34,801 nt of DNA. Source: a virus. The notes under the pieces are model-generated. The model was not told the origin of the DNA. It ran no database searches and worked only from the letters and a program-made list of their open reading frames with translations. Positions 20,978 to 22,572 of the stretch are shown piece after piece (the first letter of the stretch is position 1; the number at the start of each line of letters is the position of its first letter). The DNA is taken from positions 1 to 34,801 of IMG/VR virus record IMGVR_UViG_3300046836_000748. One strand, 5' to 3'. A program made the position numbers and the translations under genes.

Positions 20978-21110
20978 ACTGGGCATTTCGCATTCGCCGT
21001 TTCACTTAGGGGGGTAAAGGTAGTAGTGATATGTGAATTAGAGTTCACGCAGGCCTTCCAGGGGTTTCGTTTCGCATCCATTTCGCAAATTCGCTGCGAA
21101 ACGAATGGCG
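20845..21110. repeat. GCGAAT/ATTCGC repeat field, replication origin candidate
   Basis: Short repeats of GCGAAT or its complement ATTCGC, with TTTCGC variants, are packed at 20845-20886 (for example GATTCGCCAATTCGC), 20934-20970 (GCGAATTCTGCGAATTCTGG), 20983-21005 and 21064-21110. CGTTTCGC (21068-21075) and GCGAAACG (21096-21103) form an inverted repeat. Between lies a lower-GC stretch (21005-21055) with GTGAA/TTCAC arms. The field starts inside the helicase gene's end and fills the gap after it. Such iteron-plus-AT-rich layouts are typical of phage and plasmid origins; centromere or operator use is also possible. Confidence 0.6.
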
Positions 21111-21422: not shown

Positions 21423-21694
21423 CCTTGATAAAACCCGTGGTCCTGACCGATGCCCAGATCATCCACGACTTCGGCCAGGAGATCGCACGCCTCCGCCTCG
21501 AGCTCGCCAACGCTAAAAAGCTCTTGACCCTGCAGGCATCCATCAACCACCTGCTCGAGCAACACATCGCCTCACAGGACACCGTCATCCAGGCCGCCCG
21601 TGAAGTCGTCCGTCACTCGGAGTCACCCGCCATCTGCCCGTGCCACAATCGCCTCGCCAATGCCATCTCTGCCCTTGACAGGGCATCAGCCTGA
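21419..21694 (+). CDS. Coiled-coil hypothetical protein (91 aa)
   Basis: A 91-residue protein with an ATGA overlap. Residues 15-70 form a heptad-like helix (E-I-A-R-L-R-L-E-L-A-N-A-K-K-L-L, then H-L-L-E-Q-H-I). C-P-C-H near residue 74 is a small Cys/His group. It shares one base with the methyltransferase start. Unknown role, perhaps a dimeric adaptor. Confidence 0.58.
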   Translation: MTLIKPVVLTDAQIIHDFGQEIARLRLELANAKKLLTLQASINHLLEQHIASQDTVIQAAREVVRHSESPAICPCHNRLANAISALDRASA

Positions 21695-22572
21695 TGGATC
21701 ATCCTCTCGTGCTGTCACTCTTCCCAGGCATCGGTCTGCTCGACCGAGCCTTCGAGCTCGAAGGCTTCTGCGTCGTCCGTGGCCCCGACGTGCTCTGGGG
21801 CGGCGACATCCGAAAATTTCATCTCCCAGCCGGCGTGTTCGCGGGCGTCATCGGCGGCCCGCCCTGCCAGATGTTCAGTCGCCTCGCCATCATGGTGCGC
21901 CACAACGGCTACGAGCCGAAGTTCGGCAACCTGATCCCCGAGTTCGAGCGGTGCGTCACCGAAGCTGCTCCGACGTGGTTCGTCATGGAGAACGTACCAG
22001 CCGCTCCCCCGCCAGTCGTCGACGGCTACCTGGTTCGCCACCAGGTCGTAAACAACCGCTGGTTCGTCGACGACGGTCAGACCGGCGCTGAGCAGAACCG
22101 AACACGCCGACTATCCTTCGGCACCGTGGATGGTCGCGGGCTGGCATTCGATGTCGCACTCTTCGAGCATCAGGCCATCGCTACTGGTGTCACCAGTAGC
22201 GATGGCGGCGGTGTGATGCGTGGGCGGCAGCCGGCGGTGTTGAGCGATCTTCGCTCAACACCGGTTCGCATCGGTGGAAGTGGCAAGGCAAAGCCATTTG
22301 CCGTCACGGCACGGCATGCTGGCCGGCCACCCTGGGTGGCCGGCGCTGACAGCGCCGGCCACGGTGGCGACAACTCCAAGCAGTACGTCTATTCGCTCGA
22401 GGACGCGTGCGAGCTGCAGGGCTTGCCTCGAAATTTCACCGACGACATGCCGTTCCGCAAAGACGCCAAGCTCAAGGCTGTCGCCAACGGCGTGCCGATC
22501 CCGATGGGCCGCGCTATCGCCCGCGCCGTCAAGCGTGCCATGGGCTATCCCACGTCCGAAGAGGCCGCCTGA
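21694..22572 (+). CDS. DNA (cytosine-5-)-methyltransferase
   Basis: A 292-residue C5 methyltransferase with most classical motifs: I (L-S-L-F-P-G-I-G-L-L-D), IV (G-G-P-P-C-Q-M-F-S with catalytic Cys58), VI (E-N-V-P, Glu99), VIII (Q-N-R-T-R-R-L-S-F-G, 134-143), IX (E-L-Q-G-L-P) and X (A-V-A-N-G-V-P-I-P-M-G). It would methylate cytosine at C5 with SAM, likely protecting phage DNA. The target-recognition region between VIII and IX is short and Gly-rich (about 160-225), and its DNA is a run of perfect palindromes. No cognate restriction gene is nearby, so it is a solitary enzyme. Confidence 0.92.
   Translation: MDHPLVLSLFPGIGLLDRAFELEGFCVVRGPDVLWGGDIRKFHLPAGVFAGVIGGPPCQMFSRLAIMVRHNGYEPKFGNLIPEFERCVTEAAPTWFVMENVPAAPPPVVDGYLVRHQVVNNRWFVDDGQTGAEQNRTRRLSFGTVDGRGLAFDVALFEHQAIATGVTSSDGGGVMRGRQPAVLSDLRSTPVRIGGSGKAKPFAVTARHAGRPPWVAGADSAGHGGDNSKQYVYSLEDACELQGLPRNFTDDMPFRKDAKLKAVANGVPIPMGRAIARAVKRAMGYPTSEEAA
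22174..22362. repeat. Cluster of perfect palindromes inside the methyltransferase gene
   Basis: Four perfect hairpins: GCCATCGCTACTGGTG (22174-22189) with its complement at 22191-22206, 1-base centre; CGGTGTTGAGCGA (22235-22247) with 22251-22263; GCCGGCCACCC (22322-22332) with 22334-22344; GTGGCCGGCGCTG (22336-22348) with 22350-22362. The last two share 22336-22344, so they are alternative folds. A smaller one, GGCAAA/TTTGCC, lies at 22287-22302. All fall in the target-recognition segment of the gene and are translated in frame. Confidence 0.85.

Follow-up and report, generated by a model that had tools for sequence, protein, structure and literature searches.

Four perfect palindromes (h1 to h4) are packed into the variable target-recognition segment of a phage C5-cytosine DNA methyltransferase gene, and we consider them to be coding palindromes that probably arose, and stay perfect, through short-range template switching, or quasipalindrome conversion, during replication. 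The gene lies in a window of 34,801 bases, i.e., the whole stretch of DNA that was analysed, in which terminase, major capsid, integrase, primase-like and RecT-like genes are also present (Table 1). Its identity as a C5 methyltransferase follows from the PF00145 match, the GGPPCQ (PC) motif, the ENV motif and a C5 methyltransferase fold, and an AlphaFold2 model built with 33 relatives as input has M.HaeIII and M.HhaI as best structural matches. A tblastn search of the methyltransferase against annotated phages returned two weak matches and nothing more, and no restriction gene was noticed beside the gene.

Table 1. Positions of the methyltransferase gene, its palindromes and further features described in the text; positions refer to the window unless a relative is named.
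Feature	Position	Strand	Arms (bp)/centre (nt)	Codon phase	Sequence or remarks
C5-cytosine DNA methyltransferase gene, phage	21694..22572	+			292 aa; PF00145 1.4e-14; phrog_116 3e-20
Variable target-recognition segment	22123..22395	+			between motif VIII (QNRTRRLSFG) and motif IX (LEDACELQGLP); from alignments and AlphaFold2 model
Palindrome in N-terminal coding part	21747-21766		10, loop-free		AGCCTTCGAGCTCGAAGGCT; 11 bp in L019
h1	22174-22206		16/1	2	GCCATCGCTACTGGTG-T-CACCAGTAGCGATGGC; encodes AIATGVTSSDG
h2	22235-22263		13/3	1	CGGTGTTGAGCGA-TCT-TCGCTCAACACCG
h3	22322-22344		11/1	1	GCCGGCCACCC-T-GGGTGGCCGGC
h4	22336-22362		13/1	2	GTGGCCGGCGCTG-A-CAGCGCCGGCCAC
Imperfect inverted repeat (83%)	21066-21105		18/4		
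phrog_67 methyltransferase hairpin, L122	13536-13564		14/1		aa 59, variable part before CxCGAW
phrog_67 methyltransferase hairpin, L122	13576-13604		13/3		aa 73, variable part before CxCGAW
MT-A70 methyltransferase hairpin, L113	13180-13204		11/3		aa 17
MT-A70 methyltransferase hairpin, L205			16/6		aa 20
MT-A70 methyltransferase hairpin, L266			9/1		aa 15
PAPS-reductase-like gene hairpin, L115	13780-13807		13/2		
PAPS-reductase-like gene hairpin, L138	8213		11/2		

The initial annotation of this DNA had described four perfect palindromes, two of them as alternative folds, and all four were found; h3 and h4 overlap by 9 bases and have one arm in common, so that they can form only as alternatives. 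Only two further perfect hairpins in the whole window have arms of at least 11 bp, which brings the total to six. Codon-preserving shuffles, which the annotation had proposed as a check on its statement that such a density is beyond chance, confirmed this statement: hairpins with arms of at least 11 bp arose 15 times in 3000 synonymous permutations of the gene, 35 times in 3000 draws from phage-wide codon usage and 14 times in 3000 shuffles of codon order. The expectation is thus approximately 0.005–0.012 per gene compared with four observed, which is far beyond chance. The further claim that the palindromes are confined to the recognition segment stands in so far as all four lie inside it, but the motif-coding parts are not empty, as they contain the loop-free palindrome listed in Table 1. 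Both the density and the placement of the hairpins in the recognition segment are supported by these data.

A comparison with relatives, likewise proposed in the annotation, revealed that perfect hairpins recur in their recognition segments with differing letters. In one clade, nine methyltransferases have perfect hairpins there, the close relatives in IMG/VR that do so being L018 (87% identity to the window gene; L018 and L001 are one contig), L019, L020, L021, L022, L023, L026, and L027; in the tree of the gene core, the deep nodes are weakly supported (18–51%). For h1, the ends read A...T in L019, GTC/GAC replaces ATC/GAT in L022, and L026 has TTC/GAA plus GCT/AGC. The h4 hairpins of L018–L020 equal that of the window except at the centre, where T/A differences are found; the L021 version of h4 has ACT-CAC-AGT, and that of L027 reads GTGCCCGGCAGTGTCACTGCCGGGCAC. 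In L018, h2 keeps the axis that it has in the window and shows four paired differences. Moreover, axes move while the protein motif persists: the peptide encoded at h1 is covered in L027 by a 17-bp hairpin whose axis is displaced, the place of h4 is taken in L023 by a 12-bp palindrome with a different axis, and L020 carries another hairpin a few codons downstream of the place of h2. Hairpins are gained and lost among the relatives, and their arms change in concert. Occasional hairpins, nearly all of them in the recognition segment, are also present in the distant relatives L033, L046, L055/L059, L067, L090, and L132. In two further relatives, L143 and L152, the N-terminal part of the methyltransferase is intact and an early stop or unrelated sequence follows at or before motif VIII; these genes are possibly pseudogenes or frameshifts.

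The perfection of the palindromes is all-or-none. Among all axes with 12-bp arms in the nine clade genes, 17, 4, 3, 27, and 145 with zero, one, two, three, and four mismatches were observed, compared with 0.03, 0.35, 3.85, 27.0, and 131.9 expected. A strong excess is therefore limited to perfect Watson–Crick stems, stems with two or more mismatches occur at chance level, and the small excess at one mismatch is partly composed of perfect 11-bp arms counted over 12 positions. No G-U pairs were found in the stems with zero or one mismatch in these genes. Template switching would leave such a pattern: the nascent strand would fold back at an imperfect inverted repeat, copy one arm into the other and return, and each event of this kind would convert a quasi-palindrome into a perfect palindrome. 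As later mismatches would be erased by the same switching, stems should be either perfect or gone.

A direction of copying is suggested by comparison with the relatives. The left arm of h3 is the reverse complement of its right arm; the right arm encodes the conserved WVAG, and the left arm encodes GRPP, compared with DRLS in L023, GRLS in L028, and SRMS in L027, so that the left arm looks as if it had been overwritten from the right one. In h4 of L027, the left arm, encoding VPGS (VPKA in L028), mirrors a right arm encoding VTAGH, which is conserved in L022, L026, and L028. The h2 hairpin of the window has a family-like left arm (VLSD) and an unusual right arm (RSTP, V to T), and in h2 of L018 it is the right arm that is family-like (RPVP) and the left one that is unusual (AALGD, V to A). 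Arms thus look overwritten in both directions, as predicted by arm conversion, and the multi-base changes in h2, h3, and h4 of L027 fit the adjacent reverse complement in this comparison among relatives rather than between an ancestor and its descendant.

Template switching between the arms of inverted repeats was documented in yeast coding genes (PMC8604942), and it can create and maintain hairpins in RNA genes (PMC8794818). In E. coli, it is a hotspot process that is stimulated by Dcm-DNA complexes trapped by 5-azacytidine (PMC6357072); that covalent methyltransferase-DNA complexes help to trigger the rewriting in the phages is pure speculation. The phage hairpins resemble the quasipalindrome template-switch mutations of E. 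coli reporters (PMC6357072, PMC7202029), yeast coding genes (PMC8604942) and RNA genes (PMC8794818) in that one arm seems to template the other with a perfect product, that multi-base changes are clustered and that spacers differ, as at the centre of h4. Unlike those mutations, which are single events, several events are inferred here within 190 bp of one gene and clade-wide. A second parallel is offered by the mitochondria of Nematomorpha, in which perfect inverted repeats occur in functional coding genes with all-or-none identity and concerted arm changes, are gained and lost between species and are absent from phase 3 among the longest repeats; this 'binary' signature was interpreted as repeat conversion, and template switching was named as a possible mechanism (PMC6649704). 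Similar as in these mitochondria, both arms of the phage palindromes are translated in frame beyond chance, identity is all-or-none, arms change in concert and hairpins are gained and lost. As in the longest of the mitochondrial repeats, phases 1 and 2 are favoured over phase 3: all hairpins of the recognition segment are in codon phase 1 or 2, and the sole phase-3 case lies outside it. However, the mitochondrial repeats reach 284 bp and are scattered over many genes, whereas the phage arms measure 11–17 bp and are concentrated in one segment of one gene family. We assign the feature to the coding palindromes as an example from phages, for which no report concerning phage methyltransferases was found in the open-access literature searched. 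Within a coding gene of a virus, it provides a dense natural record of apparent template-switch conversion, and the repetition of this record across relatives opens the process to study from sequence alone.

An alternative, which we consider unlikely, is that the hairpins themselves are selected, either as mRNA stems pacing translation of the recognition domain or as DNA cruciforms bound by protein, with compensatory changes fixed by purifying selection. It draws on the recurrence of hairpins at homologous places and on covariation, as h1 has a covarying pair at codons -4/+4 (A-T/G-C/T-A) and h4 has two (G-C/C-G and G-C/A-T); covariation at both hairpins exceeds column shuffles, and the slid controls are weakened, the structure having been read from these very sequences. 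Furthermore, synonymous positions are conserved: all 21 of 21 hairpin codons (h3 included) are identical between the window and L020, compared with 115 of 196 (59%) elsewhere in the gene (p = 3e-5). This identity would be given by selection on the hairpin, and it is equally predicted by conversion combined with protein constraint, since selection on the protein keeps codon positions 1 and 2 unchanged and a synonymous change in one arm would be restored from the constrained partner arm. Hairpin carriers are also low in RNA folding energy (mean z -4.1), but 53 relatives without perfect hairpins show a mean z of 0.09 and thus no excess of RNA structure; a perfect hairpin is missing from both outliers, L063 and L091, and the segment of L063 is overlong from the motif search. 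Selection for structure is further opposed by the lack of G-U pairs, by numbers of stems with two or more mismatches that do not exceed chance, by axes and sequences that shift freely, and by the intact genes of L021, which lost or never had a perfect h1, and of L018 and L019, from which h3 is absent. The suggestion of the initial annotation that an RNA structure controls translation therefore finds little support. A conserved functional RNA element was considered in its own right and rejected, given the absence of G-U pairs and of family-wide structure in the 53 hairpin-free relatives. Covariation and synonymous conservation, which are commonly taken to prove a functional RNA, can also come from a mutational attractor.

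In the AlphaFold2 model, pLDDT is below 50 at residues 171–193 and 200–228 of the recognition segment, so that most of the hairpin-coded protein is predicted to be disordered or unresolved; the residues encoded by h1 (161–171) lie mostly just N-terminal to the low-pLDDT stretch. Conversion events would survive here because of the predicted disorder of the protein and its high content of A, G, S, T, and V, residues with codons that could pair in phases 1 and 2 without serious damage to the protein. Elsewhere, in 671 kb of sequence that excludes the methyltransferases of the clade, the density of such hairpins is 0.043 per kb, approximately 12 times the triplet-shuffle expectation, and this excess in other DNA of these phages makes the perfecting process appear general. 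In the recognition segment of the clade, the density is more than 100 times this background. The enrichment may be due to tolerance, residue composition or selection for new specificities, and tolerance alone may not account for a density so far above the background of the same phages. We infer that template switching is the mechanism and that the concentration results from tolerance, to which selection for new specificities may contribute.

In a stronger form, the hairpins would be a selected diversification device, in which a template switch at a hairpin would replace several residues of the specificity loop together and would be retained because the resulting methylation specificities help the phage to evade host restriction. 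Single conversion tracts do alter several residues, as seen for GRPP in h3 and VPGS in L027, and hairpins are found in two unrelated families of methyltransferases, likewise in variable parts. Hairpins are few in a scan of phrog_67 methyltransferases, five with arms of at least 9 bp in 46 kb; the two of L122 and one at aa 85 of L162 lie in the variable part. Three hairpins of MT-A70 methyltransferases all fall in the loop after DPPW, with no others among 80 relatives (Table 1). A helicase family examined as control contains merely scattered hairpins, three in 91 kb, two of which have arms of at least 11 bp. The phrog_67 and MT-A70 hairpins hint that template switching may help to diversify specificity loops. 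However, the counts beyond the C5 clade are small, and h1 and h4 are located on mostly conserved peptides and not on the most variable stretch, so that a selected device seems quite improbable to us. The broader idea that hairpin-templated rewriting serves as the phages' own diversity generator for methyltransferase specificity, with quasi-palindromes kept in the recognition loops of several families, we regard as more doubtful still. If the concentration in loops holds up, it would give phages a simple route to change several specificity residues at once. The phage of L122 carries a C5 methyltransferase that has three hairpins, too.

Template-switch conversion of inverted-repeat arms was not named in the initial annotation, and it fits better than the three mechanisms considered there. 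Besides RNA structure, these were mobile hairpin elements that became coding and recombination points for the exchange of specificity. Insertion of elements such as REP-like, rickettsial palindromic or bypassing elements is very hard to maintain. Four hairpins of similar size within 189 bases would suit such an origin, but homologues without hairpins are equal in codon number at h1 (11 codons), h3, and h4 (9 codons), the reading frame is open across every hairpin and the hairpins are unrelated in sequence, barring the arm common to h3 and h4. In a scan of 2.9 million viral contigs (IMG/VR), the h1 and h4 patterns matched only the same gene of sister phages and one terminator, the latter being an AT-rich, intergenic and unrelated chance match present in two contigs. 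With Rickettsia palindromic elements and REP, the phage hairpins have in common that they are short palindromes and that some of these lie within genes; unlike those elements, which are inserted, related in sequence and decaying, they are neither insertions nor members of a sequence family. As to recombination, the sequence that separates h1 from h4 is hypervariable, but the codons adjoining the hairpins have diverged to the same degree as the remainder of the gene, and no exchange between loci was seen. Type I hsdS phase variation likewise involves inverted repeats within the part of a methyltransferase system that sets specificity; the phage repeats are 0–5 bases apart, so that, unlike in hsdS, inversion would alter only one or two codons. 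Amplification chimeras can produce perfect inverted repeats, and an assembly or amplification artefact of this kind is nevertheless scarcely credible, since perfect hairpins with differing letters are found time and again at this place in contigs from separate metagenomes, always in frame and with no added length.

Inverted repeats were also noticed outside methyltransferase genes. Directly upstream of the small genes that precede the methyltransferase, the window contains an imperfect inverted repeat, which is possibly a terminator or a regulatory site. Perfect hairpins are also found in phage PAPS-reductase-like genes (Table 1).
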